From NCBI GenBank assembly GCA_949361645.1, contig OX442415.1, positions 5,692,023 through 5,756,022 of the forward strand: a stretch of 64,000 bases of DNA. The letters are read 5' to 3'. This document shows positions 20,704 through 62,272 of the stretch, in pieces; position 1 is the stretch's first letter, and each line of letters starts with the position of its first letter. The DNA comes from Spongilla lacustris (lineage: Eukaryota > Porifera > Demospongiae > Spongillida > Spongillidae). The position numbers were made by a program, and so were the translations under genes. A model generated the notes under the pieces. It saw only the letters and a program-made list of their open reading frames with translations, was not told the origin of the DNA and did not search any database.

Positions 20704-21690
20704 GTCAGTACTACTGGTTTTGTAGTCCTTATGCCACCACAAAACTACACAGTATTTGAGAACAATGCTGCAGCTGTTTTCAACTGTTCTGGAGATGGAT
20801 ATGCAGTTTTCTGGTATTTGAATGGAGCTGCTTATAATGCAGTACATGTACAATTGGGAATAAGAATTGTCCCTGCAACACCCACTGGAGGTGTGGTCTC
20901 ATCTAGTCTCTACATCCCAGCTAGGGCTACCAACAACAACACAGAAGTGATATGTAAAGTGGCAGATGGCACTTTAACCAATGTACAGACAAGTGGACCA
21001 GCTAATCTGACCATTCAAGGTGAGAACACCATTGTAGACTGTGTAGATGTTTGGGTGTTAGATAATGAGGTTAGAACACAAAGTTTCTGGGAATTGATTT
21101 TAGCATCCTTAGTAATAGACATAACTGGCTAAACTTGTGAGAATTCTACTATAACCTATTCAGTGACACCTAGTTGTTGCAGTGGAAATATTCTGCTTTC
21201 AAAGAAGCCATCTTCATGCACTCACTTATCCTACAAACAAAAACCTTGAACCTTGGCAAAAAAATACATGTGCAATGTAAAACATGAATTTAAACTTGGA
21301 TTGATACCCAAAATGACATGACACGTACATTACTATACTTTGTTTTCATCCTAGGTCCACTTGATGCTCCATACAACTTATCAGTAGCCAGATCCAACAC
21401 ATCCTTCATACTCTCCTGGGGTGCTCCATTCTCCCTTCATGTCACAGGCTACTCTACTGATATATTCAATTACATCCTGTGTACCAATATCACCATATAT
21501 GGATGTAAGACCATCCCCAGTGATCCAGACTGTACCTTCCCAAGGACATGTACCTCATCAGTTGATTTCACTGACCCTTCACTAAATGGTACAAATAAGA
21601 CCATCATGGACTATGGTGATACAATTCTGTTCACATTCTTTGCCATCAATGGAGCTGGAAATGGAATTTATGCAGAATATGTTTTTTGTG
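20704..21690 (+). pseudogene. Ig-FN3 receptor gene, truncated member (copy 1)
   Basis: An Ig exon (20704-21019) follows CTTCAG and ends CAAG|GTGAGA. It shows VFNCSGDG, then FWYLNG, then NNNTEVICKVADG, the Cys-Trp-Cys pattern of an Ig domain. An FN3 exon (21355 to about 21690) follows CATCCTAG and reads LDAPYNLSV, FILSWGAPFS and FFAINGAGNG. Both exons are open and close to those at 28, 42 and 60 kb. Differences: the Ig exon starts in phase 0 (or needs another acceptor) where the paralogues use phase 1, no signal exon is found upstream, and the stalk, membrane and tail exons are missing. Instead a TRIM-NHL sequence begins about 15 bp after the last FN3 codons. It is probably a truncated gene; a spliced chimera with the TRIM part is possible but frames do not join directly. 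Confidence 0.6.
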
Positions 21691-21705
21691 TGAAGTGTCC
21701 ACTGT

Positions 21706-23247
21706 TGCAGAGGCTCATCGAGATGACATGAGAAGGACACTCCAACACGTGCAAGACACATTGGCTGGTGCCATTGGTGCTAATGAGAAGACCACGAAAC
21801 AAGTGGAGACCTCCAAACATGAAGCTCAACTGGCTATCGATTTGGCCTTTGAACAGCTACTTGAAAGACTTGTGGAAAGGAAGAAGGCACTGCTGTCAGA
21901 GATGGAATCCATTGCACTGACCCAGACAACATCCCTTACCCTCCAGAAGGAGCAGTTTGAGAAGATCCAAAAGAACATCAGTCACTACTCTGAGGTGACC
22001 TCCCACATCTTCCTTACCCACACTGACCATGAGGTGGTAGCTATGGGAGGATGTATACCCACTGAACTGAAGGCTACCATTATGGAGGTTGAAAATGTAT
22101 CCCTCACAACAAGCCAATATGGTCCCATTACTGTTGATGTGCAAGTGGATATCCTTATGAAGGAACTATAAATGTTTGGTTACGTATTTGAGCAATCTCC
22201 TGTCCCTTGTAAGAGTGAATTAACAGTCCAATCTGTGATCAGAAAGAACACAAAATGTTCGATGAAATTGGAGACGAGGATGTTGAATGGAGAGAGGTAC
22301 CCACATGGTAGTGTACAGGTTGAGGCTGAGATGAGGTCCAAGGCCCATAATGGAGCAGTTATGTATGGAGAGGTGGAGGACCACAGGGATGGTACCTACA
22401 CCATCACCCTCACCCCTCAGACTGCTGGTCCTCACCAGCTGGTCATTACAATGGATGGCCAACATGTACAGAACAGTCCTCATAATGTCTATGTAAAACA
22501 TGACTATAGCCACACCTTATGTAATGCCCAAACGGTGATCAAGTGTAGTCAACCATTATGTGTTGCTGTCCATGACAATGGAGACATCTATGTAGGGAGT
22601 AATCATCACTGCATTTATGTGTTTGATGAAACAGGTCAACTGAAGAGTACCATAGGTAGTCGTGGAAATGGTGATGGTCAGTTCAGATGTCCATACGGTA
22701 TATCCATCAAGGGAGATATGTTGTATGTTGCTGACAGTGACAACCATCGTATACAGAAGCTGACATCAGGGGGAGAGTTCATTCATAAGTTTGGTCAGAA
22801 AGGATCAAGTCAGGGAAAGTTTAATACTCCTGAGGCAGTCATTGTTGACTCAGACAACAGAGTGATAGTTTCTGATTTATGGAATGATAGGATCCAAATA
22901 TTCAACGAAGATGGTGGTTGGTTGTTAACCATAAATGGTTTCATGTTACCAGTGAGTCATGCCTTAGATCATCAGGAAAATATTCATGTAACAGAACAAG
23001 ATCGTATCAAAGTTTTCAATAAGGAAGGTGTCTATGTCAGAACATATGGTGGTCCTTCTTCAGGTCGAAAAAGAATAGCCATAGATGACGAAGGCAACAC
23101 CTTAGTAACTTATGGCCGTTCCATCTACATATATGATAACAATGGAAACAGGATCTATGAAGTGGAGAGTTTTGAAGATCCTATGTGACTGTGTGTATGT
23201 TGCTGACTATGGTGCTAATTCTGTACTGAAATATACTGATATTTAGG
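21706..23247 (+). pseudogene. TRIM-NHL family pseudogene (coiled coil, filamin, NHL)
   Basis: After CTGTTGCAG, a single long frame holds a coiled coil (about 21720-22060, with LLERLVERKKALLSEMESI), a filamin/ABP280 repeat (about 22196-22500, with EVEDHRDGTYTITLTPQTAG) and NHL repeats (about 22520-23247: QFRCPYGISI, LYVADSDNHRIQKL, ITVSD-like segments). This order matches TRIM2/3/71-type proteins, but RING and B-boxes are absent. The frame is interrupted by one TAA at 22169-22171, exactly in phase, between KEL and FGYVFEQSPVP, where paralogues would continue. Near 23185 a frameshift separates FEDPM from CVYVADYGANSVLKY, the usual last NHL blade. The long intron-free frame could be ancestral or a retrocopy; no poly(A) or flanking duplication is seen. 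Confidence 0.8.
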
Positions 23248-23432
23248 TGCTGTATTGTGTGTTGTGTTATATTGTAGTGCTGTGTGGTTTTGCAAGACTG
23301 TATATTAATGTACAATTGTGATGGTCGGCCTGCACTACTCAACAGTGTGACACACACACACAACATAGCATGAGATATCGCACGACTGACTTATGATATT
23401 ATGGTTATATGCTGTGTCTCCACCTTTACCTC

Positions 23433-23500
23433 TAGGTCACCCTACCACAGTGGACTTGTTGCATCATTGCCATGGCGATGATGTCATAACCATAAAGGTT
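23433..23500 (+). other. Possible exon of unidentified plus-strand gene
   Basis: Between CTCTAG (ending about 23435) and AAG|GTTAAT, the frame HPTTVDLLHHCHGDDVITIK is open with a phase-1 start. No family recognised. Confidence 0.25.
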
Positions 23501-24210
23501 AATTCAATGATATGTTCCAAATATGGGCACCTGTGTGCAGCAGCTATCACACACCTCTGAGCCTGGCAGGTTCCCAGACTAAATAGTAATTGCTCCTACA
23601 TGTAACTTCACCCAACCCACATAGCATTTGTGCCTAATTCTGTGTGCAGCGTCCTCTGCAGTGATGTCACTGGCCAGACCACACTGATATGAACATAGAA
23701 ACCAAAAGTGACATCATTTGAAATGAGTATCATAGCACAAACACACACAACTCATTGAATAATAATGCCTTCTGTCCAACTTGTATACATACAACACACA
23801 AGCATGATGCACAAATGACAGCCATTTATATTCAAAGTATAAAACATTGTGCAAACTGTTAATGGCAGCAAGAGGGGGGAGTGGTTGTTGTCATGAGAAC
23901 TTGGATGCAGTATCAAAAGTGATCTTCCATCCAATCGCCTTGTTGTCATGTAAAGGTTGCATCTCTGGTAGCTGTCCAGAGACCACACTGCACTGCACAC
24001 CAGACGACGATGACCCTAAGAGATAGGGAGGGTTAATGTGCTCACTCCAGGGGCGACATCAGGGGGAGGGGCTTCCCTGGCGTTGCAATCAGAAAAAGTA
24101 TACCACAACCTTATTTACACATACTGGGAGTGTTTGTCTCTTCTTGGTAACTAAGCAACATACACATGCCCCGCCCTCTCTCAGGATGTACTCACCTGTT
24201 TACCCCACAG
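23501..24210. other. No further gene seen
   Basis: Mixed sequence. A segment at 23818-23865 (GCCATTTATATTCAAAGTAT..) is partly repeated at 25055-25100 on the far side of the GGGA tract. Confidence 0.4.
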
Positions 24211-24289
24211 TCCAGTCGTATGGAGTCTGTAGATGACCTCATCTTTCTGAAGTGCCATGTCTGCATGACCAAGGGACAGTTGGATAAAG
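24211..24289 (+). CDS. Candidate internal exon of an unidentified gene
   Basis: Between the acceptor TTTACCCCACAG and the donor AAAG|GTAAGG, 79 nt encode SSRMESVDDLIFLKCHVCMT followed by KGQLDK, ending in phase 1. It joins in phase to the candidate exon at 32009-32059. I do not recognise the protein. Support is the splice sites, the matching phase and codon-like composition only. Confidence 0.4.
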
Positions 24290-24689
24290 GTAAGGGAGGG
24301 GGGGGGGATGGTCAATTATAACTAATTCCCCTCCTAATCCGAATAATAATCACAGCCCTTCTTAGTTATCAGCCTACAGGTAAAAGGAAAATTTCAACCA
24401 CTATCAACTGTTAATAATTTTAATGAATTATTACATATTGTTTACCGTTCCTAAATTATAAAAATCAAAATTTTAATTTTGAATAACTCCTAAATGAAAC
24501 TATGATTGCAGCTTTTACAATTGTTTTTAAAAAACTTGAAAGGAGTAGGCATGATGTCGTAAGGGTCTTGATTTATTGGGGAGGTTGAAATTATAAACAT
24601 TCTGGGTAGCTACAAAATTTTGCTTTCAATTAGGTACACATACACACAACACACCATCACCACACCGGTCACAGAAGGATGTACACCTG

Positions 24690-25028
24690 GGGAGGGAGGG
24701 AGGGAGGGAGGGAGGGAGGGAGGGAGGGAGGGAGGGAGGGAGGGAGGGAGGGAGGGAGGGAGGGAGGGAGGGAGGGAGGGAGGGAGGGAGGGAGGGAGGG
24801 AGGGAGGGAGGGAGGGAGGGAGGGAGGGAGGGAGGGAGGGAGGGAGGGAGGGAGGGAGGGAGGGAGGGAGGGAGGGAGGGAGGGAGGGAGGGAGGGAGGG
24901 AGGGAGGGAGGGAGGGAGGGAGGGAGGGAGGGAGGGAGGGAGGGAGGGAGGGAGGGAGGGAGGGAGGGAGGGAGGGAGGGAGGGAGGGAGGGAGGGAGGG
25001 AGGGAGGGAGGGAGGGAGGGAGGGAGGG
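24690..25028. repeat. (GGGA)n tetranucleotide tract, about 340 bp
   Basis: About 84 uninterrupted GGGA units. Open frames on both strands (Gly-Arg-Glu-Gly and Leu-Pro-Pro-Ser) are artefacts. Runs of GGG at 4-base spacing favour G-quadruplex structure, and the purine-only strand favours triplex DNA. Confidence 0.99.
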
Positions 25029-25029
25029 T

Positions 25030-27290
25030 GCAAGATGCAAGATGCTTAAATGACAGCCATTTATATTTAAGTATCAAATTAAACATTGTGCAAACTGTTA
25101 AACTTTAGCTTACTGTGTACAGTGTAAAGTGTATAATACTTATGACATCCTGCAGCTGAGTAGTAATATTGGGGCATTGTGGTATACTTGATATGAATAT
25201 CCCATTCCACTCTCTCCCTACCTCACAATGCAAAAAAAAATTAAAATCTTCACATCTACCTATTTTTTTTTTGTTTTGCCAACCTTCATCTTTCTCCCTT
25301 TGCCTCCTCTATATATATGCATCCCCTCCCTAGCTCTCCTCCTCCCTTTCCCCCTCCCTCTCCCCGCCCTTTCACTACCCCACCATGCCGTTCCATGTTC
25401 ATCCATCACCAAATGGAGGAAGTTGTATAGCTAGCAATAATTGTGTTCTGATTTCTATAAATGATAGGGATATCTGTTGTTATTGGTTACCTACAGTATG
25501 TATGGATGCTATAGCCAGTGGTACAATGTGTGCAGAACCTTGGCTTACAGAGGGAACGGAGTAGATCAGTTGTCTGATAGACTGTCCTTCTAGACTTATT
25601 TATAGGAGATGTCTATTGTGTGTATTTGAACTGTCTGGTGGATGGCAGTTGTGTGAGATGGGATGAGGTATGCAAATGACATCATTCTAAATTGTTTATT
25701 TTTAGCAGACTTAATATAATTGTCTCTTGTAGTCCACAAGTTCAATAATTGAGCAAGATGCTGGGTCCATATACAAGCCTTTTTATACACCTACTGCAAA
25801 CAACTATTTACTGTTGGTTTCTGGTCAGGATGGCTCTGGAGATGGCATACACCAAGGTCACATTGAGCCTGCCGTAAAGGAGAACTACCTATGTGCAAGG
25901 TCCATGGCAACAGCAGCAACAGTCCCAAGTCAAAGGTGCTGACAAGATCTTGAATTTCCAACTGGCTGAGCTGGGATAAGTCCATTGTGGATTATCGTTT
26001 ATTTCACTATTGTTAACTTAACTACCTTTTTTTTCTTTTTAAAAATATAAGCCACCAACGTTCTCATAGATAAAACCATTGTAGTGTTTAAAGATCTCTT
26101 TGACAGTACTTGACAGCTCCAATGTGCCACACCTTGTATCCCTTCCATTCGCCGTGCCCCAATGAGTTATTCATATTCATCTCCAGAAGTATGTGTACCC
26201 ACATCTGTCTCAGTAAAAATGAGACAATGTATTGGCATTTTTGAGTGTCCTATTTTGGCACCTTGACATCCCATGGCACCCAAGATTAAAATATGTAGCT
26301 TCTCCATACCAAGGTGTTGGCAGTCATCCTAAATCATGTGGGGTATAGTAGTACTGAGGCACAAAAGCCACATGATCTGCCAGCCTGCTGCAAGTCACAT
26401 GTCTGATCACATGCTCAGCCATGTGTTTTTGATGTATATACATGTTGTATGACTGTGGATGGGTGTGGTCTGACACTCACAAGATGCAAAGAAATACACG
26501 TGTGTGTTAGGAAATACTCTGCATACATGTACATGTATGTCCGTAACATACACACAACTGTGTGGCTACTATCAGCTGCCTGACCTTACATGCACAACTC
26601 AATGTACATGTGTACAATAACCATACATGTAGGTTTTTGGATAAGATGGAGAGAGCAGTAACGTTCCTGGATTTATTGAATTGCAAACGCTTATTTACTT
26701 CATAATGTAGTTTACAAAAACATGTTAATAAATACTTCTCCACCTTTCAAATGTGCATATACATGTAAGGTTATAGAGGCCATGGTTCCTGGAACTTTTA
26801 AGAAAAGTGTAATGCACAGATATGCATTTATTTACCATTGAAGTTTTTGTGTTTTAACCATTAGGCCATTTATACACCCATACCAAAATCAGTACTTGAT
26901 CACATGCTTAAGTATCAGTTACACATACATGTGTACAGTACACTCCTGCAAGTTAGTACACTGGAAATTTGAGATAAGCATTTACATGTAAGAGGAGGGA
27001 TCTTATGTATCATCTACATCAGAGTTAGCACATGTACATGTACATATACATTGGGAAGATTCTATCATGGATTTGGTGTAATCTCTTGGTTTAATACAAA
27101 GTAACCTAGTGCTACTAGTTATATGGGTTACTGCCATCAATCTGTTATTGTGACTGCCTAATGCACCACTCCATATGCAGGACATGGTTCCATATCCTTG
27201 ATATCAGAGGGAGTTCTTTTGTTGACCACTTCATATGCATGGTTCACTTCCATTTGAATGTTGTCCAAATGATCTGTTAAATATCATATC
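25030..27290. other. No gene seen
   Basis: Mixed AT-rich sequence with a CT-rich patch (25300-25370) and ACATGTACATGT clusters (26525, 27030). The minus frame at 25791-25985 shows no domain. A short C-terminal exon for the receptor gene at 27.3-28.7 kb could lie here but is not recognised. Confidence 0.4.
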
Positions 27291-27297
27291 ACACCAT

Positions 27298-28682
27298 TTA
27301 TACGACATCACTGACTATAACTGTACCTTTGTGTTTACATTTGATGTAGATACCTAAACAGACCACACCCACCACAGTTGATATTAATAGCACTGACACT
27401 CCACAGGTTGCTCCATAGACTATATATGATGACACATTCTCCATACATATTAAAAGCATACATGTATCACAAAATCTCCTTACCAGCAGTATTGCTTGTT
27501 TTTGAATTTGAATATATGATACTAGTGCTGTATGATGTCAACAATACCAATGATGTCATGGGCATGGAGGATGTGGTGGTGATTGAAGCTTCTCTTTTGC
27601 CAGCTGTGTATGTAGACAAACAATGCCAGTGACTATAGCTAGCTATATAGCTAATTATATATGGAAACAGTTGAATGGATACTTTTTCTCTACCAAAAGA
27701 TGTACTTACAAACTTCTTTATTGTGGTAAATATATTCAGCCGCATTTCCATTTCCAGCTCCATTGATGGCGAAGAATTTAAACATGATTTGATTACCATA
27801 GTCCATGATGGTCTTATTTGTACCATTTAGTGAAGGGTCAGTGAAATCAACTGATGAGGTACATGTCCTTGGGAAGGTACAGTCTGGATCACTGGGGATG
27901 GTCTTACATCCATATATGGTGATATTGGTACAAAGGGTGTAATTGAATATATCAGGATAGTATCCTGTGACATCGAGAGAGAAGGGAGCACCCCAGGAGA
28001 GTGTTAATGATGTGGACATGACTACTACTGAGAAGTTGTATGGAGCATCAAGAGGACCTGAAGAGTTCATGTAGATGTTAACAACTTATACTTTGAAACG
28101 AAATGCTCAATTTGTATTTAAATTAGTTTTCAACTTCATAAATAATGTTGAAATAAACACTATAACATTCAGAACTATTACCTTGAAGAGTAAACTTTGA
28201 TGAATTACTGGTCTGTACATTTGTGAAAGTGCTATCTGCCACTTTACACATTACATCTGTGTTGTTGTTAATAGTAGAATTACATGGGATGTAGAGACTA
28301 GATTTGATAACAGCTCCAGCTCCACTGAGTGTGTATGTTATTCCCCTTTGTTGATGTACTGGACCATAAACACTTCCATTTAAAATCCAAACAATAACAG
28401 ATCCATCCCCAGAACAGTAGAAAACAACTGAAGCATTGTACTGAAATGCTGTGTAATTTGGTTGTGGTGATAGAAGTATAAAGCCATCTGTACATGTATC
28501 TGAAAAGACTGGAGCTTACAAATACATAAAAATACATTCAATCAGATTATGCCACATGATTGGTTGGCATACTTTACCAGCATGCAGTGCAAATACTCAC
28601 TTGTACTGGACAGGCATAAAAGTAACATCATGAAGTAAGCCAGAATAGAATCTTCTGGACAATGTGGAGCTATAAATAACAT
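27298..28682 (-). CDS. Ig-FN3 single-pass receptor, short-tailed member (copy 2)
   Basis: Five exons join in frame to 329 aa: 28601-28682 (start), 28182-28499 (Ig), 27710-28057 (FN3), 27484-27603 (stalk), 27298-27419 (membrane and tail); all internal junctions are phase 1 with GT..AG. The N-terminus has the hydrophobic run MMLLLCLSS; I give the upstream ATG, but 28631 is the alternative. The Ig domain shows VVFYCSGDG, VWILNG and NNNTDVMCKV. FN3 shows LDAPYNFSV, LTLSWGAPFS and FFAINGAGNG. The stalk is rich in Ser/Thr. The helix is about residues 291-315 (ATCGVSVLLISTVVGVVCLG), followed by KCKHKG and a 14-residue tail ending VSDVV with no tyrosine motif. A donor TTTAG|GTATCT inside the last exon could give another tail. 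It looks intact, likely a cell-surface recognition receptor; ligand unknown. Confidence 0.65.
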
Positions 28683-34432: not shown

Positions 34433-34446
34433 TATTATTTATTATT
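34357..34446. repeat. (TTA)n(TTTA)n tail of the retrotransposon copy
   Basis: On the minus strand this is the 3' end of the element: an AAATAAATAA-type then AATAAT-type simple tail directly after the coding frame. Similar tails sit at 36402-36487, 36638-36660 and 37303-37345. Confidence 0.85.
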
Positions 34447-36407
34447 CATATTGGATTGATACAGTACAAACATGACACAGACACATGATATGCACAAAAC
34501 AAGTTGCTAGCCTACTGAAGCTCAGGAGGAGGTATGGACCTGGACAGGATCGCGGTGGCATTGCATTGGCCCTGACAAGATTCATGTTCAACCTCCCGTA
34601 CAGCTCATGAATGACCACTGACTTTGACTTTCCCAATGATGTAGCCAAACGGGAGCCAAGTTTAGAAAAGAAATCCCTAGCCGTCAAACCCCATGCCCCA
34701 TAAGACTCCGCAACAACCGGGACACATACCCAACCCAAATCAGCACACTTGCCCGTGTTGGCTTTAAGCTTTCTCTCCTTGGTAGCTGTAGCTGCTGCGC
34801 CAGCCGTCACTCCCGCTTCCAGAAGGGTAAGTGGGTTAAGCGGAGAAGTAATGGATAGGTCCAGAGCCGCAGGCTTGCCCATGCACCAGTGAGGGATGAG
34901 GATGTCTGCTGGACGTGTGTTGCTGTGGTCAGGAGTAAGGTTATGGCCTACTTCTAAATGGACACTAAGATGGGCACGGCGACAGGACTCGGCCACAATG
35001 TCCCGAAGCCTGTTATGGCGATAGACAACATCCCCACCACGCTTGCATGTTGTGGCATGATGGCCAAGAGGATCGAGACTTTTTTCAGGACACAGTGCAC
35101 ATTGGGCATCACCAGAAGTGTCTAAACCTAGCCACCACTTGACAGCAACTTGAAATTGTGACGGTTCAAGTTGGAGCCCCTGGCGCTCACATGGTGGCAT
35201 TGATAACCAGGAGGCTGCATGAGGTGACGAGATGGACAGCAAACGAGCCTTGTTTGCAACTGTAGAAGCTTCCATGAGGGAACTGAGGAGTTGGTTATCG
35301 AGCTTCTCTGATAACTTGCCCTGAGAGATAGCAGATGACAGGAAGTCCTCAAACTTAATGCTGTCCTTAGCAGGGACTAACTGATTAAACATGCCCACTG
35401 CATCAGACAAATGTTGGGAAGAGTTTGGGGCTAATCCTGAGGAAGACAAAGAAGAAATAAAGGCAGCACTTGCATGATGGGCAAGGGACCTTAAACCCAG
35501 GCCACCCCTGCTCAAGCTGAGTTGGGCCTGTTGCCAGGCAGCGTCCGATGCATCAATGCCTGTGGATGATGAGAAACACCGGCGAACATCCTCATCAAAC
35601 AATTGCAAAGCCTTAAACGAAAAGGATGGGGGGGTAGCGCGAGCAATGTGATTTAGGCGACAAAAACCACCACAAAGGCGAATTAGAATTAATGCCACAT
35701 GAGGGTCAATTGCACCAACTTTCTCAAGTTTATCTAGAAGTGATTTGGATTCAACACGCTTTGAAGAAATAAACGAGGCACAGAACTCTGCATCACCAAT
35801 AGGGATTCCTAGAATTACAAAACATGCTTTGTTTGACTTAACAATCTGGTCAGGAAATCCCTCTAGGTGGTTACGACTGTAGATCTCACACTTGCCAACA
35901 TTGATGAAAAGCCCTAAAGAGGGTCCATCCTGTTGGAGCAGTGATATAACCCTCAGCAAAGCAGACCTTGGACCTGCTAGGACCCCATCATCTAAGTACC
36001 ATGCATGGAGCAAAAGGCTCAAGCAATCAATGTCCTTAGCTATTTTAAGCACTAGGATGTTCAGAACAAGGGAAAAAAGGAGTGGACCCAGAGGATCGCC
36101 TTGCTGGACTCCAGACTCTGATGTGAGGGATCCCATAGAATGCCACAACAATGGGTGCTTACTGTAGCACCAACTTACCCATGGAAGCAACTCCGGAAAA
36201 TGCTTTTCACACTCGGATATGAGAATTTGACGAGAAGCTAGGTTAAAAGCATTCCTCATATCAACTTTGAGGACTCCAAAATCCTCGTCCATCCAATGCT
36301 TCTCAACACAAGATCTTACACTGTGTGCAATTTTCTCAGCTCCAAAGGAGCACGCAACACCATACTGAAAAGGATTAAAGAAATCTGCAGCCTTTGTCTT
36401 TATTGCT
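34442..36407 (-). mobile_element. RLE-type non-LTR retrotransposon, RT-endonuclease ORF, 5'-truncated
   Basis: A 616-codon ATG frame (34442-36292) extends in frame upstream to about 36405 as FFNPFQYGVACSFGAEKIAH. Reverse-transcriptase motifs: LKVDMRNAFN (residues 8-17), GVQQGDPLGPLLFSLVL (61-77), YLDD (99-102). Then come LSLSRGGLGLRSL, a Cys-Cys-His-Cys knuckle CALCPEKSLDPLGHHATTC (398-416), RHNRLRD, and RPADILI with GKPAALDLSITSP (460-483), the restriction-like endonuclease core. This order (RT, CCHC, PD-D/ExK) is that of R2/CRE/NeSL-like elements. The C-terminus is shifted after VRANA: another frame continues ILSRSIPPPELQ and stops, as in sister copies, so the last 35 or so residues are spurious. 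The N-terminal part of RT is missing. It copied by target-primed reverse transcription; this copy is dead on arrival. Confidence 0.85.
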
Positions 36408-36447
<40 letters not shown>

Positions 36448-37302: not shown

Positions 37303-38503
37303 TTATTATTATTATTATTTATTATATATATATATATATTAATTAATGTAATAATATGATACATAATACACATAAACATTACAAACAAAAGGACTAATAT
37401 TACAAGAAGTTCTATAGATCTTCCATAGATGATCCTGCTCGAGACAGGAGTGCCCGTGCGTTGGCTCGTATCAAAGTCAGGCTAAGCCTGCCATACAATA
37501 GACAGGTAGCTTGGGACTTGGAGCAATTTCCCCTGGTGGCTAGGCAAGAGGCAAGGCATGATAACAGTTGCATGGCTTCTGCACCCCAGCACCCATAAGT
37601 CTCCACTGCTATGGGGATACATGACCAGCCTAGCTCAGAGCACTTGGCATCATTAGCATTGTGCTTGCACACCTCAGCTGCCAGAGCTGCAGACCCACTT
37701 GTCACACCCGCTTCCATTAACGTACTTGAATTTAGCGTAGATGTGACAGTAAGATCTAGAGCTGCTGGTTTGCCCAAATCCCAATGAGGGATAAGAATGT
37801 CTGCTGGCCGAGTTCTATGTCCTTCATGCCCCAAACCACTTCCTGCTTCAACTTGAGGACCCAAACAGGCCCGTCAGCAAGATTCTAAGAGGACATCCCT
37901 GAGCCTGTTATGCCGCGACACCACATCTCCTCCGTGCTTGCATGTTAAGGCATGGTGGCCTAAAGGGTCCAAAGCTTGGGATGGGCAAAAGGAGCAAACA
38001 GGAATATCAGTAGCAGCAATGCCTAACCACCACTTTAGAGCAATCTGAAACTCAGCAGGTTCAAGATAGAGATTGAGCCTGAGGGAAGGAATCACAGAGA
38101 GCCAAGCAGCTGCATGTGGTGAAGAAATGGATAGCAGACGTGCTTTGTCAGGCAAAGAGACCTTGTCAAGTAACACACACAAATCTTGATCCTCAATTTT
38201 GCCAGACAGAGATCTTTGGTGCATCACAACATCAAGATGGTCCAACACTAAGGCATCATCAGAGGAGACAAGTTCATTAAAATCTTTGATGGCCTCAGCT
38301 AGGTGCTTGCTAGAAGATGAGCAGACACCAGAAGCACTTAAAGAGGATATGTGGGCAGCTTAACTGTGTTCCGAAAGACTATGGAGCCCAAGACCCCCTC
38401 TGCTTAGGCTGAGTTGGGCTTGTTGCCAAGCAAATTGGGTGGGTCTATCGCGGTACATTCAGAAAAACAGCGATGGACATCATCATCATAGAAATGCAAA
38501 GCA
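37303..38503 (-). mobile_element. Fourth stacked non-LTR copy, from end of RT to tail
   Basis: Minus-strand frames 38248-37874 and 37864-37412 read ISSPHAAAWLS, CSFCPSQALDPLGHHALTC, RHNRLRD, then after a stop and shift RPADILIPHW, GKPAALDLTVTS and LYGRLSLTLIRANARALLSR, stopping at 37412. Upstream, LSLSRGGLGL is also readable with a stop in it. The tail at 37303-37345 includes TTA and TA repeats. Confidence 0.8.
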
Positions 38504-38563: not shown

Positions 38564-38689
38564 TAGCAGCTTAACCCTTTATAATCCAAATTAATGATCC
38601 CATGCAGACTTGTGTGATATAATGCATAGACAAATGTATGTGGGTGTAAATGGGAGGGAAGGGGCCAATAATAAGTTCTCCCATCAGCT

Positions 38690-38975
38690 GCAACTTACTG
38701 CTTTAGTAAGGTTTTACTGCACTGTAATGAACCATATCATTGGGGACAGAAATTGAAATGATTGGATGATATGTCACAAAAGTGCACGTGTAGCAAGGTT
38801 TTTCCAATTTCAAGTAGTGCATGGTTATTAATATTTCAAAGTAAAAAAATACATACATGTACTCTTAAGATGTAAGTGCAATGTCTAAACAACTTGAAGT
38901 TATCTTTTACAAAGCAATATAACATAATTCCAATTTCACCTGTATAAAGTAGATGATGGTATGTATGGACAAAAC
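38690..38975 (-). pseudogene. Extra cytoplasmic-tail exon copies of the receptor family
   Basis: Minus-strand 38810-38700 reads KLEKPCYT, then HPIISISVPNDMVHYSAVKP and a stop, matching the terminal exon at 62168-62272. Its acceptor is CTAC instead of CTAG, so it may not splice. At 38930-38960 a fragment of the preceding tail exon with its acceptor TTTATACAG is also present. The sequence around 38940-39060 repeats the intron at 41070-41200. This is a duplicated, decayed tail region lying downstream of the gene at 40.6-43.5 kb. Confidence 0.6.
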
Positions 38976-40600
38976 ATACACAAAGAGTGCTGGTAGGTTA
39001 AATTTAGTCACTGTATCACTTATTGTTTACATGTGAATATATATGCAAAATGTATCTGCAATTATGTTTGGTTACTGTGTAATTGCCAATGAACAGCAGT
39101 TGTTCACTCATAATTGAGAGCAACTGCTGGACCTTACTTATATCTTACTCAAAGTTTGTCTTGGTCATGGTACTCTTAGCTTCCTTAGATTACTCTTTCA
39201 ATTTGCAACCCAAGTACCAGCCTCATCACAGCCACGCACCATATCAGCTACCAGTACCAGCCTCATCTCAGCCACCTATACCCTCATCTCAGCCACCAGT
39301 CCCATGCAGCCTCATAATTTGTTCAGTTGCATCGAGAATAAGTGTTGACAGTATCATTGTGTGTACATTTTCTTTAATTTTATATCCCTAGGTGCCAAAA
39401 GCAAGTGACCGCACTACCTGCATTGTTTCTGAACTTCGTTTATGTGATGGCTAACCACACGTATTATTCATAAAATACACGTGCCATGTAGAGCTGTAAA
39501 ACAAAAAAGTGGCTGGTTATAATATGCTTCTTGGTCTGTCTTGTTGATGTTATAACTCGCTGATCCTCTAAAATTTGTCAACATACCTGCTACGCACTCT
39601 CAAAGTTCCCCCTCTCAGACACCACCTCTATTACATGGACGATGCACGGCTATTGGAGTAAAATTGTAAGTTGTGTGCGTAGGTGGTTTTATTTAGTATG
39701 GTGATAGGGTGTATGAAAGATCAAATCATCTTAAATGGTTGACTTTAAAAGAGCATGAAATTTGGGTCACAAAAGGTTCAATTTATAATGAGCTCTTGGA
39801 GTAAATAATTTTTCAGCATTCAAAAGGCATACTATAATAGCCAATTATCAAATTGTGCTCAGCCGCAAACAGTAGTGTTTGCTAAAGCTATAATAACTCT
39901 TGCTTTTGATGATGAATAATGGGAATACAATGATATAATCAGTCACAAATAGATGTACGCTATAGATCATGATAGCATATGTAATCACAAAATCAAATGT
40001 AAAGTCTATGTATTGCCATCTGCAATTGTTTGGCAGCAATCCCATGATGGATTCATGGTCTATCCACGTGGGATCTGTCCAGATATATATATACACTGTG
40101 TTATACGCTGCGTATTACATTAATTAGCATGTGTAGATATGTATAAGATATTCAAAAGCACTGAATATGTTTTTTGCTTCAACGTCAATTAACAATTCTT
40201 TTTTATTACTTTGAGCAAAGGATCATTAAATAATTCATAAATGCTCTTCAGAAATTTTTTTTTCCTATAATGGAATGCTTAGACAATTTTCAGTGGACTA
40301 TTCAAAAAAAATCTAGGTACAATACTCATGTATTCTCTTACATTTTCAATTTTATAATAAATAAGAATAATGGAATATTAATGTTATTTGCAGCATATAA
40401 CAACCCTTTAATATAATCAGGCAGATCTTACGTGGACAGACTCTACATCCACCACAGAGAATGACTCCCAGTCTTGTGTTATACCTGAGGAGAATAAAGT
40501 GCGGATATAATGCATGGGCAAATATTAGATGTGTATTGGAGGTGAGGAGGAAAGCAAATGGTTGGAGGGACATGGACCTGAATAGCTATTATTGCCAAAA
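38976..40600. other. No gene seen; short Pro-rich repeat at 39200-39310
   Basis: A CCAGTACCAGCCTCATCTCA-type repeat at 39215-39310 gives a plus frame with SSQPPIPSSQPPVP. No start, splice or domain support. The rest is AT-rich. Confidence 0.4.
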
Positions 40601-40617: not shown

Positions 40618-43502
40618 TCAGGAAGATTTTACAGTACTGTACTTAACTTCATCATTGGGGATAGGAATTGTGATGATCTGATGTTTGAAAATAAATAAGA
40701 GTGCTCGGTTCCCACAAAATAAATGTTGGGTCTGGATCGTCACTATACCAGTTATACATTCGCATTAAAAGTGGCAGAAATCATGCATACACTTTAGCAA
40801 TACTATTTGCGGGAACCACGGAAACTAACGCTGTCCGTTCGTACATTTAAAAGGCTGCCTCGACTGAACATAATGGAAGTATTGTATAATGCAATATAAA
40901 CTTTAATCTTTTACATATATGATGGGGGGGGGGGGGGGGGGGGGGGGATAGCTTACTTCCTCAATATGCGGAGCTTTTACTTCACTGTACTGAGCCTCGT
41001 CATTTGGGGCAGGAATTGTGATGACTTGAAGACATGCCACATCTGTGTAGCAGGGGGTGTCCAATTTCACCTGTATAAAGTAGATTAGGGTATGTATGGC
41101 CAAAACATATACAAAGAGTGCTGGTAGGTAAAACTTTACCACTGTATCACTTATTGTTTACATGTGAATATACAGTGTATATGCAAAATATATCTGCCAG
41201 CGTATTACCATGTTTTGTAATTTCAATTGTGATTCTGAGGTGCCTGTAGGTTCGCAAACACTCCCCGGCAGTGATAAACATGGATATCCTGTTATTGGAT
41301 AGATTTCAAAAGGCAATGAATGCAATGAGTGTTTATAACTTACGCGCTTTTCTCTTAAGAATGTAACATTTCATGGCTATTCCAATACTGAATGCTGTTA
41401 ATACAACAGCTCCAATGGTGACTCCCACAACTGGTGCTGCAATATACAAGGGCACATTTGAGTACTCTTTAAAACACTACAGCTTCTAACTAACCAATTG
41501 AAGTTTCACTTTTGACATAGGTAAACGATGTGAAATTTGTCACTGTTGCTTCAGTTGGACTTGGAAATGTTTGTGTTGTTGAAGCTTAATGATAAAAATG
41601 AAATGCAGATTGCGGTTTTTCATTACAAAAAAGAAATTATAGCAGTAATTGAACTCAATTACAATATACATAACCTGTACATGCACATGTTTATGTAGAA
41701 GCACTGATTTTATAAATGTAAATGAAATTACACAGATCGACCTGCTTCCTTTACATTATAATTTTTTTAATGTATTGCGATGAGCAACACAATATGGTAA
41801 CTTATATCAATAGGAATACAAACCTTTTAGATATGTAAAATTGGCCAGGGTCCCATTTCCAGCTCCGTTGATGGCAAAGAACGTAAATACAATTGGATCC
41901 CCATAGTCCATGATAGTCTTATTTGTACCATTTAGTGAAGGGTCAGTGAAATCAACTGATGAGGTACATGTCCTTGGGAAGGTACAGTCTGGATCACTGG
42001 GGATGGTCTTACATCCATATATGGTGATATTGGTACACAGGGTGTAATAGAATATGTTAGTAGAGTAGCCAGTGACATTAAGACAGAAGGGAGCACCCCA
42101 GGAGAGTATGAGGGTATTGGACATGGCCACTGAGAAGTTGTATGGAGCATCAAGTTGACCTAGAAGGTGATGAAGAAATGTACACATTGTACTGGAATGA
42201 TAGTGATTGCAAACATTGACAAAGATAGCTACTATGAAATACTGCTAGGAATCTACTAACAAAAGTTGTAATACGTCAAGCTGAGTAATGCAAAAACATT
42301 GCAAACATGGCTGTATTAAGGTGTTGTGATCAAATAAAAAGCAACTCCAGATCTACATATGCACCAGCTCATTTGTACCAAACGTGAGCTATGAATAATC
42401 TCACACAATTGCCGATTACAATCATTTATAGTAAAATTAAAACAAGATCTAGGATTCCAATGCATGGCCACATCTCAGCTTGCAACCTTTTACCCAACTA
42501 CTAATGGGCCAATAGCCTGTATGGCAGGCAATATGTCATGACCTTCACTATTACTAAATCTCAATCTAGTTAAAGCAAATGCCACTGCTATGCTGTCTAG
42601 ATGCTTTGCCTTGGATATGTAGACTGTAGTTACATATATATTAATTATATTCATGTTATAGTGATATGATGTAAATGCATGCCTTCCATATTGTCCTGTA
42701 AGAAAGGGAAATATAATAATAATTTTTTTAATGTTGTATGAAAAATGTAATAGTAAAAGGTCATGACATATTGTAGTTATAATGGACTTCCCAGTAACCA
42801 CCACCTTTTTATAATCATAACCTTTGCATCTGCACATGTAAGCACAAATAAATCATAGACCAAGTAATATCTACATATATTATAATTTAGTGCCCATTTT
42901 TATTTCTATCTAATTCTTACCCTGAACAGTAAAGTTTGATGGATTACTGTACTGTATATTAGTGAAATTGCCATCTGCCACTTTACATATCACTTCTGTG
43001 TTGTTGTTGGTAGCACTAGCTGGGATGTAGAGGTTAGATGTGACAGTAGCTCCATCTCCACTGAGTGTGAATGTGATTCCTCTTTGAGCCTGTACTGGAC
43101 CATAAGCACTTCCATTTAAATACCACACAAGAACAGATCCATCTCCAGAACAGTTGAAAACAGCTGAATCATTGTTCTCAAATACTTTGTAGTTCTGTGG
43201 TGGTAAGAGGACTACATAGCCAGCAGTACCTGAAGATGGTAAGTATATAGTACATGGCTTAATGAGAACATATACATTTAGTTTCACTGGATATATCATG
43301 ATCAGTGTACATGTACATTGGATAAATACAATTCGATCACCCAGAACATTTCTGGTTGAACACAAAATAATTTCAACAGTGTAGCATTACTATAATTCCT
43401 AAAGCTAGGTCAGTACACTGTATAGAAATAGTATTAGAAAGTGTTACCTTGCACTGCCAGAAGTAAGTATATCATCAAGAACCTCAACAGGATATGGTGC
43501 AT
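40618..43502 (-). CDS. Ig-FN3 single-pass receptor with tandem ITIM-like motifs (copy 3)
   Basis: Eight exons sum to 1092 nt in one frame, 363 aa: 43448-43502, 42921-43229, 41824-42159, 41495-41584, 41344-41436, 41209-41243 (35 nt), 40957-41070, 40618-40677; all borders are GT..AG and phases agree. Signal peptide MHHILLRFLMIYLLLAVQ; Ig domain 19-121 (AVFNCSGDG, VWYLNG, NNNTEVICKVADG); FN3 122-233 (LDAPYNFSV, LILSWGAPF, FFAINGAGNG); Ser/Thr stalk 234-263 with possible N-glycan sites; helix 264-284 (PVVGVTIGAVVLTAFSIGIA) followed by KCYILKRK. The tail has Tyr334 in AQYSEV and Tyr357 in VKYSTV; the second fits the ITIM consensus (I/V/L/S)xYxx(I/V/L). Such motifs recruit SH2 phosphatases in other animals. 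It is probably a cell-surface inhibitory or recognition receptor; ligand unknown. Confidence 0.72.
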
Positions 43503-55621: not shown

Positions 55622-55697
<76 letters not shown>

Positions 55698-57067: not shown

Positions 57068-58110
57068 CCCATAGACTTCTCTCTCTGTGATTGGAAGGTT
57101 CTGAACCAAGTTCACCTTGGGGTTGTGCAAGAGGCTGGGATATTTGGTGAGGTGCACATTATTTGGAAAATATTATGATGAAAAATATTATGATGGAAAT
57201 TATGATGATGGAAAATCAATTCTTCTGGAGAGGTAAGGATTGTAGTATATGCACTTATAACACATACATGTAGCTGGTGTACTCAGATTACAACATCAAT
57301 ACTCACACATGTACACACACACATGCACACAGACACGCGACGTACACACATGCACACACACACACATGCACACACACATACACAGGGGAAAGGATTGCTG
57401 ACCACAGCAGTGCAACTTTAGCCATCCAAGCCATACACCATCATTTTTGTTTCTCAGTAAAACCATTAATTGATAACCATGTCCCTTCTGCCACATACTG
57501 CTGCTGAGAACTATGAAAATGACAGAATTGCCGAAAGGAACCCTCAAGAAAGTGATACAACAATCTGGTGTGTTTTCCAGCTGGGGAGGGAGAGCACAGA
57601 GAAGCCATGGAGTGGGTCTGGGGACTCAGGTGTGCTCACCTAAGCTGCATTAGGACCAGACATTGATGGGCATATCTGCTATGATGTGAACTTGTACCAA
57701 TCTGTGTAATAGATTATTGAGCAATTGTTGTACATGTACATGTTGCAGTTGTTACATTTCTTTGGCTATAGTATTGGGAAATAGTGGTGTTGCATGTAAC
57801 TTAGATAGAACATTATTTCTTTGGCTAGTGTGGTGTTGTAACTGGCTGGTATAGAAAGCATGTTACTTAACCTCCCCATACTGAACTCATACAACACACA
57901 CCCTCCACCACGACCTCCAATCATCCCACTCCACAAGCATGCAACACTCATTGAGACTGCACCCCACACCACCTGCACATGCACACAATACCACACACAC
58001 ACCACACAATGCACACAATACCACACACACACCACACATGCACCCAATACACCACACATGCATATAACACCACACACACACCACACATGCTCCCAACACC
58101 ATGCCACATG
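57068..58110 (+). pseudogene. Calx-beta-like module, copy E
   Basis: Block 1 (57068-57231) reads DFSLCDWKVLNQVHLGVVQE and then AGIFGEVHIIWKI before a stop, the clearest version. Block 2 (57383-57450) reads GERIADHSSATLAIQAI, which resembles the central strand of a Calx-beta repeat, then is deleted. Block 3 (57455-57720) keeps GPDIDGHICYDVNLYQSV and a stop. Block 4 (57885-58110) follows. Copies D and E are direct neighbours, showing tandem duplication of the block. Confidence 0.5.
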
Positions 58111-58139
58111 CAAACATCAACTTATCTACTTCCAAATGT

Positions 58140-58387
58140 AAATAAAGGCCTGCTTAAGTACTGCATACGAGGAGAGAAGGTCATACAGAAGCTGACATCA
58201 GGGGAGAGTTCATTCATAAGTTTGGTCAGAAAGGATCAGGTCAGGGAAAAGTTTAATACTCCTGAGGCAGTCATCATTGACTCAGACAAACAGAGGGATT
58301 GTTTCTGATTTATGGAACGATAGGATCCAAATATTCAACTAAGATGGTGGTTGGTTGTTAACCATAAATGGTTTCCTGAAACTCCTG
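58140..58387 (+). pseudogene. TRIM-NHL fragment (NHL repeats) cut by assembly gap
   Basis: The DNA from 58170 onward closely matches 22745-22945 (GCTGACATCAGGGG, TTCATTCATAAGTTTGGTCA, GATAGGATCCAAATATTCAA). The frame is broken by at least two one-base insertions and a TAA in place of the Glu codon of NEDGGW. It ends at the run of N. Confidence 0.8.
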
Positions 58388-58587
58388 NNNNNNNNNNNNN
58401 NNNNNNNNNNNNNNNNNNNNNNNNNNNNNNNNNNNNNNNNNNNNNNNNNNNNNNNNNNNNNNNNNNNNNNNNNNNNNNNNNNNNNNNNNNNNNNNNNNNN
58501 NNNNNNNNNNNNNNNNNNNNNNNNNNNNNNNNNNNNNNNNNNNNNNNNNNNNNNNNNNNNNNNNNNNNNNNNNNNNNNNNNNNNNNN
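58388..58587. other. Assembly gap (200 N)
   Basis: Exactly 200 unknown bases. The round number suggests a placeholder. Sequence on the right does not continue the NHL fragment. Confidence 0.99.
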
Positions 58588-58664
58588 CAACATATTTTAA
58601 CTGAGCATCCATTGGTACAGGTAGGAAGTGAATAGATACAACTGAATAAATTTCGTGAGCAGGT

Positions 58665-58735
58665 TCCTTCTTCTTTGTGGTCCAGATTGAGTTCTCTCGA
58701 GGGTGATGGTTTGCAGAGCCAGTGTCTTAACCAGC
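58665..58735 (-). ncRNA. tRNA-like / SINE-head-like sequence
   Basis: The minus strand reads CAGCTGGTTAAGACACTGGC, then TCTGCAAACC, then ACTCAATCTGGACCACA. This resembles the A-box and B-box halves of a Leu-type tRNA-derived sequence. No paired acceptor stem or standard B box (GGTTCGAATCC) is intact, so it is at best a decayed tRNA-derived SINE. Confidence 0.25.
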
Positions 58736-58781
58736 TGTGTGTGTGTGTGTGTGTACATGTGTGTGTGTGTACATGTGTGTG

Positions 58782-58860
<79 letters not shown>

Positions 58861-58862
58861 AT
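58736..58862. repeat. (GT)n microsatellite with ACAT interruptions
   Basis: About 127 bp of GT repeat following the tRNA-like segment. Confidence 0.95.
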
Positions 58863-59651
58863 GTGCAGTCATATCCACATCTACTTGAGGTGGCTTGCAT
58901 ACATACATGTGCCATGGGAGAGCGTTGAGTACATTTGCCATGGGAGGGTGCTGCTTGCAGCTACTGCAGAAGTTAGATGGATGAACACCAGAGATATCTG
59001 TTTTTGCATTAATGCAAAAGGCTGCTTGGCGGTTAGCACTGAAATCATTGCACTGGTAATACAGCATCTTTCTTCATCTCTTTAGTAGCAACTCAGTAGC
59101 CTATTGCCACACACCTGCAGCACAAAAATAATCCTTGCCTGTTATAATCCATTCCATATATATATATATGATTTGCCTAGCTGTGCATGTGTCATTGTTT
59201 ACTAATAATTATTCATATTAATAACAAGGATGCTGCTAGCTAGCACGCTGCCACACTATGCAGGTTCCTGCCGAAGCTTTCAAATACGTATAATTATACA
59301 CGTATGCATGCCACTTATCCCAACATAGCTAATTTCTCAACTAACACTTCTTTTAAGTCTCAGGCAATGCATAGAAACACACAAAAGCAAAAATGCATGC
59401 AACTCTAACATATTCATTGCCACTCACATGGCGCCGTAGCAACGGTACCACTGAAGGCGGATTACGTAACTGCAAATCCTCTATAGAAATAATTTTATCG
59501 CCATAGCTTCTGTAGCTAAAGTAATGCACTATCCGCATGTAATAACAAACCACAGCACATATAATGCAATTTTATAAAAATGAACCATTCTTTAGAAATG
59601 TATAACTTATTTTATGTTATAAAGCCATTGTCACTATTACATTATGTGCAG
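58863..59651. other. No gene seen
   Basis: Mixed AT-rich sequence upstream of receptor copy 4; would include its former promoter. Confidence 0.4.
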
Positions 59652-62272
59652 ATGCATCAGATCCTGCTGAGGACTACAGTAATTCCCATCTTGATGATGA
59701 TGTGCCTACTCGTGTCAGTGAGAGGTAATTTGCAAGCAAACATTTAATACAATGTACTGAGATATTGTGAGGCCAGACACATGAGCATATAAATAAATTT
59801 CCTTTTTTTAATTATTGTTTTGTGTTAAACTAGAAATGCTCTGTCTGTCTTTTTCCAATGTATATCATGCCATGTAACATATTTACCATCTTCAGGCACT
59901 ACTGGCTATGTAGTCCTCTCACCAGTACTGAACTACACAGTATTTGAGAACAATGCTGCAGCTGTTTTCTACTGTTCTGGAGATGGAACTCTTATTCTGT
60001 GGAATTTGAATGGAAGTGGTTATGGACCAGTTCACGCTCAAAGAGGAATAACATTCACACTCAGTGGAGCTCAAGCTACTGTCTCATCTACGCTCTACAT
60101 CCCATGTAATTCTACAAGTAACAACAACACAGAAGTGTTCTGTAAAGTGGCAGATGGCACTTTCACCAATGTAGGGCCTACAGACCAGTAATTCATAAAA
60201 TCTTACTGTTCAAGGTAAGAATACTAAAAGTTATAACCACAAATTTCAGTTTGGTTTATTTCTATACATGACTTTGACACAGATAATCTTACTCTTCAGA
60301 GTAGTAAGCTATAAAATTGTGTACTGAATTGCAGTGCATTCCAATATGACCTGGTCTTTATGGATGTTATCGTAAATAGGTCATGGCAATGCAAAGCCCT
60401 GCCGGAATAAAAATGTTGCGTTTTCATGCATATGGGCAATGCACCCTTGGCATGGGCCAACCTCCCACCTGAAAGTCCTAAATCAACATGACCGTGAATT
60501 TTTACGTAGTGCAAAGGATAAAATTATTATGAACTATACTTAGCTCCTAATGACTTGTGGTGTGATCTTGCAGTCTGATGTGAATTAAATGCTGAGCGGA
60601 TTCTAAATAATAGAATACTCTGTAATAGTTATCATTCACTAGCAGTATTCATTTTGCTAAGTATTAAAATTTCAAATGTACACCTACCAACTATAACTGT
60701 TTTTCTGTTTTCTGTTTGCATTTGTAGACATATAATCAATATAGCTGCTATTTAAAAGGCCTCCTGGTCCACTTGATGCTCCATACAACTTCTCAGTAAC
60801 CATGTCCAATACCTCCTTCATACTGTCCTGGGGTGCTCCCTTCTCTCTTGATGTCACAGGCTACACTGCTAATATATTCAATTGCACCCTGTGTACCAAT
60901 ATCACCATATATGGATGTAAGACCATCCCCAGTGATCCAGACTGTACCTTCCCAAGGACATGTACTTCATCAGTTGATTTCACTGACCCTTCACTAAATG
61001 GTACAAATAAGACTATCATGGACTATGGTGATCCAATTCTACTTACGTTCTTTGCCATAAATGGAGCTGGAAATGGGACCATGGCCAATTTTACATACGT
61101 GTATAGTCCGACGAAGGAAGCAGGTCTGTGTAATTTTATTTACATTTATAAGAGCAGTGCTTCTACGTGGTGTACCAAATGGGCCGTAACAAGCTCACTA
61201 CATGTTAATGTTAATGGAAAAACCTGTGCCCTTGATTTGTGTTGGAAATGCTAGTGCAGAATATATACATGTATATGTTTAGCATAAAACTGCAAGTATG
61301 TATGTGTACATTGTAATTGAGCTCATTTATTGCTTTATGTTTTAGCTGCATACAGTCATATTTTGTTTATGAAAACATTATGTACATTTCATTTTTATCA
61401 CATCAAGTTTCAACGACACAAACTCCAAGTGGAGCCACAGTGACAAATGCCACATCATTTACCTACATGTATTCCAAAAGTGAAACTTCAATTGGTTTGT
61501 TAGAAGGTGCAGTGTTTTACAGAGTAATCAAATGTGCCCTGGTATTTAGCTACACTTGTTGTGGGAGTCACCATTGGAGTTACTGGAGCTATTGTATTAA
61601 TTGTATTCAGTATTGGAATAGAATTGTTACATTATTAAGAGAAAAGCACGTAAGTTATAAACACTCATTGCACTCATTGCCTTTTGAAATGTATTCAATT
61701 ACACATACAGAATATCCATGTTTATCACCAAGTGATTGCAAACCTACATGTACCTCAGAATCACAATTGATATTACAAAACAAGGTTAACCAATATCTAA
61801 CACATTGACTGAAATTTTGTGACTAAAAATAAGTTGGCATATAAGGAGAGCTATTTTGCAACATGGCTGCCATGGTTTGCTACAGTAATGTGCCAGCACA
61901 CTTTTTCTATACGTTTTGTCCATACATACCCTAATCTACTTCATATACAGGTGAAATTGGATACCCCTTGCTACACAGATGTGGCATGTCTTCAAGTCAT
62001 CACAATTCCTGCCCCAAATGATGAGGTTCAGTACAGTGAAGTAAAAGCTCCACATACTGAGGAAGTAAGTTATTGCTTTGCAACATATGTTAAATATAAC
62101 TTCAAATTGTTTAGATATTTCACTTGTATATTTTGTTTACTTCGAAATATTAATAACTATGCACTAGGTGAAATTGGAAAAACCTTGCTACACTGATGTG
62201 GCATGTCATCCAATCATTTCAATTTCTGTCCCCAATGATCAGGTTCAATACAGTGTTGTAAAACCTTCCTAA
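59652..62272 (+). pseudogene. Ig-FN3 receptor with two ITIM-like motifs, broken (copy 4)
   Basis: Exons by comparison with copy 3: signal 59652-59724 (MHQILLRTTVIPILMMMCLL), Ig 59896-60214, FN3 60767 to about 61115, stalk 61408-61494, membrane 61550-61649, tail 61951-62064 and 62168-62272. The tail exons are open and carry VQYSEV and VQYSVV, both perfect ITIM-like motifs, ending KPS stop. Lesions: a 7-base insertion (GGGCCTA) and a TAA near the end of the Ig exon; the FN3 acceptor reads CTCCTG rather than CTAG; a 5-base deletion after the membrane helix (VVGVTIGVTGAIVLIVFSIG) causes a shift and stop; the 35-nt exon has lost its acceptor. Several independent breaks argue for a pseudogene rather than assembly error, although the tail looks unspoiled. 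Confidence 0.75.

Follow-up and report, generated by a model that had tools for sequence, protein, structure and literature searches.

A large clustered family of putative Ig-FN3 receptor genes with two classes of tyrosine tail in the freshwater sponge Spongilla lacustris

Receptor loci in the window and their gene models

A stretch of 64,000 nucleotides from the sponge Spongilla lacustris (contig OX442415.1 of assembly GCA_949361645.1, forward-strand positions 5,692,023 to 5,756,022; hereafter the window) was analyzed for related loci that combine an immunoglobulin (Ig)-like exon with a fibronectin type III (FN3)-like exon. Self-comparison of the window reveals four such loci, named A to D, which have in common the Ig-like exon at 73-84% DNA identity and the FN3-like exon at 88-93%. 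Gene models and a genome search suggest that the window is probably a slice of a large, clustered, fast-turnover family of single-pass surface receptors, subject to birth-and-death, signalling by phosphotyrosine and partly resembling receptors with the immunoreceptor tyrosine-based inhibition motif (ITIM). A first-pass annotation had assigned the full receptor plan to all four loci. The Ig and FN3 exons are indeed present in each, but only B and C, both on the minus strand, read as intact receptors.

In an intact gene, a signal peptide is followed by one Ig-like domain, one FN3-like domain bearing four additional cysteines, a stalk rich in Ser/Thr, a helix without charged residues, and a tail belonging to one of two classes. 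According to the splice-site model, locus B (28631-27158, minus strand) has six exons encoding 346 residues and locus C (43502-40618, minus strand) has eight exons encoding 378 residues, each in an open frame with GT/AG sites. In both genes every exon up to and including the helix exon ends in phase 1, and both proteins proceed from the start through Ig, FN3, Ser/Thr stalk and one helix to a tyrosine tail with a stop. The acceptor of the last exon of C was corrected by eye, giving an exon start at 40677.

Loci A and D as intact receptors are ruled out. The Ig exon of A does not match the phase of the single signal-like exon observed by eye in 19.7-20.7 kb, and neither the genome-wide tail searches nor a reading of the locus gave a match for a helix or tail exon, while D is interrupted by frame breaks (Table 1). 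Besides the TRIM-like fragment abutting A, a second filamin/NHL fragment of this type was observed upstream of D at 58183-58378 (+), with 94% identity to the first over 197 aligned bases.

Table 1. Features of the four loci and of adjoining sequence, in window coordinates.
Locus	Feature	Position	Strand	Remark
B	Exon 1, short signal-peptide-like start (MMLLLCLSST), GT donor, phase 1	28601..28631	-	Weak; putative start site
B	Ig-like exon, phase 1-1	28182..28514	-	
B	FN3-like exon with four-cysteine insert, phase 1-1	27710..28057	-	
B	Stalk exon, Ser/Thr-rich	27484..27603	-	
B	Transmembrane exon, helix without charged residue	27327..27419	-	Hydropathy prediction
B	Tail exon: AYEVV and AYGVV, tyrosines 20 apart, stop, no ITIM	27158..27273	-	
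C	Exon 1, signal peptide MHHILLRFLMIYLLLAVQ	43448..43502	-	
C	Ig-like exon	42921..43229	-	
C	FN3-like exon	41824..42159	-	
C	Stalk exon	41495..41584	-	
C	Transmembrane exon	41344..41436	-	Hydropathy prediction
C	Tail exon 1	41209..41288	-	
C	Tail exon 2: CYTDV ... AQYSEV, tyrosines 20 apart, not strict ITIM	40957..41070	-	
C	Last tail exon: VKYSTV (strict ITIM) and stop	40618..40677	-	Acceptor by eye
Near C	Decayed extra ITIM-type tail (VHYSAV), without its own Ig or FN3	38565..39059	-	
D	Exon 1, signal peptide MHQILLRTTVIPILMMMCLLVSV	59652..59724	+	
D	Ig-like exon, 7-base insertion then stop	59896..60214	+	By eye against C and B
D	FN3-like exon, no AG acceptor before it	60767..61123	+	
D	Stalk exon	61408-61494	+	
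D	Transmembrane exon, 4-base loss then stop	61550-61649	+	By eye against C and B
D	Tail exons: VQYSEV, VQYSVV	61711-61784, 61951-62064, 62168-62272	+	
A	Ig-like exon, out of phase with candidate signal exon near 20060-20101	20705..21019	+	
A	FN3-like exon; family homology stops near 21684	21355..21684	+	
Next to A	TRIM-like (filamin + NHL) gene fragment directly abutting A	21685..23188	+	

Ig-like and FN3-like folds are predicted for the family exons. Alignments were made from 36 of the 38 retrieved Ig loci (L046 and L068 excluded) and from 33 of the 42 retrieved FN3 loci together with five proteins. The C2-set_2 model matches 21 of the 36 Ig exons at E<=0.1, the best E of 2.5e-4 lying below the Pfam curated cut-off, and the exons display a Cys-Trp-Cys signature whose first Cys is missing only in L061. 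Matches to the fn3 profile at E<=0.1 were obtained for 20 of the 38 FN3 rows (best E 5.9e-4, again below the curated cut-off), and a zinc-finger model matches 19 of the same 38 rows (best E 0.0033). In two Ephydatia proteins fn3 was aligned over most of the profile with an insert, in P0008 covering profile positions 2-82 of 84. Four cysteines are located in this insert; across the 38-row alignment three never vary and the fourth is at least 90% conserved. Sequence searches of the PDB returned no confident fold, and antibody-type matches were weak. The four best PDB matches of the Ig profile (to E 4.6e-6) are Tako8 (two), Ika8 and Ika4, which we take to be designed propellers; they were judged repeat-like chance and rejected.

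Genome-wide extent of the family and its tails

The first-pass annotation had proposed a family of four members, a size ruled out by the genome-wide Ig and FN3 matches. At E<=0.001 the genome contains at least 90 FN3, at least 98 Ig, at least 17 C-tail and at least 72 B-tail matches, where the tail classes are named after loci B and C. After merging of split matches there are 87 FN3, 92 Ig, 12 C-tail and 69 B-tail places, those of Ig and FN3 mainly in two chromosomal clusters. Loci were scored by requiring an Ig match within 4.5 kb and a tail match within 2.5 kb on the same strand, with order judged by distance only and with broken copies such as D included. Under this rule Ig, FN3 and tail occur in order at 51 loci, comprising 27 of class B and 7 of class C on contig C1 (4.66-6.40 Mb, around the window) and 17 of class B on contig C3. 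ITIM-class tails are a minority, found at 7 of the 34 C1 loci and at none of the 17 on C3, and the distance rule overlooked at least one C-class locus. The other 36 FN3 places are without Ig, tail or both at the set distance, and at least two of them were scored tailless although locus 4682157 has a first tail exon of class C and locus 5534825 a helix of class B. Frameshifts were also found in further family loci besides D. The gene family is real and much larger than first noted, and its description as clustered Ig+FN3 receptors with copy differences and pseudogenes is borne out by the gene models and the genome search.

Two copies, at C16:4394925-4395641 and C3:8815910-8816560, apparently have Ig and FN3 in one open frame without the usual intron, as judged from equal open-frame lengths, and perhaps reflect intron loss or retrocopy.

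Among the relatives found with C, 20 of the 29 are named, and all of these come from Ephydatia muelleri. A profile search, in which the best 8000 candidates were scored, gave 114 proteins, every named one again from E. muelleri. A protein search with the tail alone yielded no candidate, as there were too few exact word matches. The nearest proteins are therefore those of a freshwater sponge, in agreement with the early-branching animal suggested at first pass. These relatives are clustered as well, with all 13 eukprot models in Em0001g2901-3119 and, of the seven NCBI models, six on a single contig of 25.3 Mb. The hypothetical proteins Em0001g2901-3119 / EMCRGX_G003179-3231 belong to the same family, include both tail classes and are clustered on one chromosome. 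Mean identity to the best of 18 E. muelleri proteins is about 60% for Ig, 77% for FN3 and 74% for the B tail, whereas tail and helix of class C are far more diverged, with means of 44% and 41%. The P0010 model has the order Ig-FN3-helix-B tail, with a stretch resembling intron read-through before the stalk, and the P0008 model has Ig-FN3-helix with VQYSEV and VQYSEA followed by unrelated sequence. No description of an Ig+FN3 tyrosine-tail sponge family was found in the open-licence literature, a scope within which absence is not proven. The Ephydatia genome paper describes tandem duplication, and the words immunoglobulin, allorecognition and fibronectin are absent from its main text (PMC7385117).

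Both tail classes possess pairs of YxxV-type motifs about 20 residues apart. The two tyrosines are kept in 30 of the 35 B-type tails examined, at a spacing of 20 (18 tails), 21 (11) or 22 (one). This set was composed of C1 matches above 60 bits and tails L086-L104 fitting one expression, with the frame-broken 4662450 tail and the C6 tail L099 not counted. The spacing is 20 in 15 of 20 C cassettes (12 scored by script and three recounted by eye) and 18 in one, and two Ephydatia tails display the 20-residue tyrosine step, one of them with a further step of 17.

The claim of ITIM-like tails holds for the minority class only. Strict ITIMs, (I/V/L/S)xYxx(I/V/L), are found in class C, as VKYSTV in C itself and as VQYSEV, VQYSAV or VKYSAV in other C-class tails; the last exons of several C-class paralogues end in NDKYSAV, outside the strict motif. 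Within the window the consensus is matched in the last exon of C, twice in the broken D (VQYSEV, VQYSVV) and in the decayed tail at 38.7 kb (-), but not by AQYSEV of C, which had been listed with them. The B tail motifs, YEVV and YGVV, contain no ITIM, and one strict ITIM (LAYEVV) was found among 18 tails of class B, the majority class, which rules out the ITIM as the common tail.

Chance matches to such motifs are not rare. In 10,000 shuffles, one ITIM arose from the composition of the C tail in 31% and the two of D in 4.4%, and a Yxx(I/V/L) count equal to that of the B tail was reached in 2.7% and to that of the C tail in 1.2%. The evidence thus resides in conservation among paralogues and in Ephydatia, not in the match itself. 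A genome pattern for the second B motif occurs at 65 places, 45 of them in the two clusters, and the reversed pattern occurs at one. An immunoreceptor tyrosine-based activation motif (ITAM) was considered and rejected, as neighbouring YxxI/L/V tyrosines in the B, C, D and Ephydatia tails stand 17 to 36 residues apart, mostly 20, and ITAM spacing is shorter than about 20. The helices of B and C are without charged residues and so give no sign of charge-based pairing with an ITAM adaptor.

B-type tails adjoin a different helix elsewhere on C1 and on C6. The tail therefore seems to be a module used beyond the Ig+FN3 family, and other receptor families may share a B-like tail. In L096-L103 (C3 8.11 Mb, C1 2.76-3.9 and 6.66-6.96 Mb, C6 5.67 Mb), B-like twin-tyrosine tails were observed beside a PIGLISGAAV-like helix.

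Other elements of the window include a reverse-transcriptase reading frame (RVT_1, E 5e-13) at 34445-36412 (-), with look-alike fragments seen by eye at 36.7-38.4 kb (-) and 44.4-45.4 kb (-). One look-alike piece, 37877-38359, was tested and gave no Pfam match. An integrase core fragment (rve, E 4.7e-6, below cut-off) is located at 8816-9037 (+).

Sequence evolution and candidate functions

Ig exons change about twice as freely as FN3 exons. The mean ratio of nonsynonymous to synonymous divergence (dN/dS) among C1 paralogues is 0.72 for Ig (31 exons; dN>dS in 80 of 465 pairs) and 0.32 for FN3 (30 exons; 1 of 435), calculated from stop-free, near full-length exons; 34 Ig and 33 FN3 exons were used for the trees. 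For nearest independent pairs in C1, the corresponding ratio of proportions (pN/pS) is 0.88 for Ig, 0.38 for FN3, 1.18 for the stalk and 1.01 for the B tail. Between C1 and C3, dN/dS is 0.40 for the tail, 0.33 for FN3 and 0.57 for Ig. The change in the Ig exon may be relaxed or diversifying, and does not amount to proof of positive selection.

A core of about 36 codons in the FN3 exon has a synonymous divergence of 0.036 in C1, against 0.218 for the whole exon, and none of 2000 column shuffles was as low. The same core differs by 0.20-0.79 between C1 and C3. Since the C3 copies differ there, homogenisation within C1, for example by gene conversion, fits better than old sequence constraint, and a fixed DNA constraint was rejected as the likelier cause. 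The Ig exon shows no such low-divergence tract at 30 or 36 codons (402 and 363 of 2000 shuffles as low) and a weaker one at 20 (45 of 2000). In C the near-silent-site identity of the FN3 core is seen, for instance, at about 41.9-42.05 kb (-), a possible conversion tract. On the Ig tree a single clade of the eight ITIM-class loci is rejected (p-value of the approximately unbiased test, p-AU, 7.6e-5), and some Ig exons therefore seem to have passed from one tail class to the other.

On the probable reading as a family of signalling surface receptors, the Ig domain would bind a varying ligand, be it self/non-self, microbial or symbiont, and contact would cause a Src-type kinase to phosphorylate the paired tyrosines. 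Their spacing of about 20 residues would allow both to be bound at once by a protein that has two SH2 domains, and 68 SH2 and 169 protein tyrosine phosphatase (PTP) exon matches occur in the genome. Members with the ITIM tail would then be inhibitory, and those of the majority class B would signal differently, possibly as activators, from ectodomains that are similar. The family would gain members through duplication, through gene conversion affecting the FN3 core and, to some extent, through new pairings of Ig exons and tails.

Several results weigh against this reading. The Pfam scores of both domains are under the curated cut-offs, and positive selection is unsupported by the nearest-pair Ig pN/pS of 0.88. 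The B tail within C1 is little diverged and has no low ratio (dN 0.050, dS 0.064, 0.77), which makes its uniformity there a matter of homogenisation at least as much as of constraint. On the Ig tree tail class is clustered beyond chance: the ITIM class takes four changes, shuffled classes average 7.4, and 1 of 500 shuffles was as low (bootstrap not settled). A single ITIM clade is not rejected by the FN3 tree (p-AU 0.334), and no clear decoupling or split by tail was found between the 5' and 3' parts of FN3; the clustering on the Ig tree and the unrejected FN3 clade indicate that re-pairing was limited. No SHP-type tandem-SH2 phosphatase was located in the genome, three of the five tandem-SH2 places showing no PTP when about 2 kb downstream were read by eye, and one tandem-SH2 place continues into an SH3-containing, PLC-gamma-like frame. 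Finally, YxxV also fits the YxxPhi endocytic signal.

Of the functions that may be considered, the one that survives best is a germline repertoire of innate immune or symbiont receptors, in which many Ig variants would recognise microbes or algae with no role in self-recognition. High copy number, birth-and-death, diverging Ig and a tail kept between clusters and species are all in line with it, and it is a fair contender that falls somewhat short of probable; nothing separates it from allorecognition. The latter, in which Ig-mediated self/non-self contact would decide graft and gemmule fusion as with Hydractinia Alr or Botryllus FcoR, is a good hypothesis, possible and now testable, to which we give tentative credence as a somewhat unlikely reading. 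It draws on the clustered, diverged Ig ectodomains, the pseudogenes and the tails with ITIM and core YxxV, and on the ITIM, hemITAM and core YxxI/L/V motifs of Botryllus FcoR and the ITIM and ITAM of Hydractinia alr candidates (excerpts of PMC12065747). However, the Ig+FN3 plan is unlike both Alr and FcoR, the homology searches name Ephydatia only, and the candidate proteins are, in the same excerpts, not conserved between sponges, cnidarians and ascidians (PMC12065747), which makes the analogy weak evidence. A further, rather doubtful proposal is that the cluster forms a histocompatibility-like complex of sponges. It would be a gene-converting array of Ig receptors on the megabase scale, whose members join similar ectodomains either to an ITIM tail or to a second tail with two tyrosines at the same 20-residue spacing.

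A serious, if unlikely, rival is trafficking, with YEVV, YGVV and YSEV serving adhesion or scavenger receptors as signals for endocytosis of the YxxPhi (and NxxY) type. YxxV is compatible with YxxPhi, and by eye most first motifs of the B class read NxAY, but adaptor binding does not require the spacing of about 20 residues that both tail classes keep, and several class C loci have strict ITIMs. That the loci are mostly dead or selfish tandem duplicates of little function is very improbable: two of the four window loci are not intact, others have frameshifts and the B-tail ratio is near 1 for nearest pairs within C1, but dN/dS stays far under 1 for FN3 within C1 and, between clusters, for each of FN3, tail and Ig, and both tail classes are kept in another species.

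Relation to known recognition systems

The sponge family resembles several clustered receptor systems in its organization. No named match supports homology to Alr; every named relative is from Ephydatia among the best 8000 candidates scored in the profile search. The sponge ectodomain is encoded by one Ig-like and one FN3-like exon, to be set beside the V-set plus I-set Ig ectodomain of Alr, and we know of no Alr protein having an FN3 domain with four cysteines. A recognition role has been shown for Alr, whereas that of the sponge family is a candidate role. The Alr family of Hydractinia contains 41 genes (PMC11999971, in excerpt), and its clustered Ig superfamily receptors, with ITIM and ITAM in candidate genes (PMC12065747, in excerpt), are comparable to the sponge cluster. 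Botryllus FcoR is likewise a clustered family with tails that mix ITIM and core YxxI/L/V. It differs in having a V-type Ig, a sushi domain and two C2 Ig domains in 520-610 residues, with genes paired with fester (PMC12065747, in excerpt), an architecture absent from the sponge gene models.

Vertebrate paired ITIM receptors (KIR, LILR, SIRP) carry similar ectodomains on different tails, including an ITIM, as the sponge family does. The activating vertebrate partners carry a charged helix residue, in contrast to the helices of sponge B and C, which have none. The sponge family may work like clustered tyrosine-tail Ig receptors, and its membership in the Alr, FcoR or a vertebrate family is unsupported.

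Sponge aggregation factors, the current candidates for sponge cell recognition, are large extracellular proteoglycan cores with Calx-beta domains, unlike the small Ig receptors described here. Sponges discriminate self from non-self with great specificity, and graft-response profiling in Amphimedon gave no significant aggregation-factor enrichment; the word immunoglobulin is absent from the main text of that report (PMC5450542). The sponge content of PMC11999971, in excerpt, concerns adhesion-type Ig molecules and the aggregation factor, and for sponge recognition genes the excerpts of PMC12065747 cite aggregation-factor work.

The recognition genes of sponges are unsettled, and the cluster supplies definite targets for genotyping, knock-down and tests in freshwater sponges that can be cultured. 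It also raises the question of whether tyrosine-tail receptor logic predates cnidarians. If the proposal of a histocompatibility-like complex is true, paired-tail phosphotyrosine recognition would extend to Porifera, either by ancestry of the signalling logic or by one more independent convergence.

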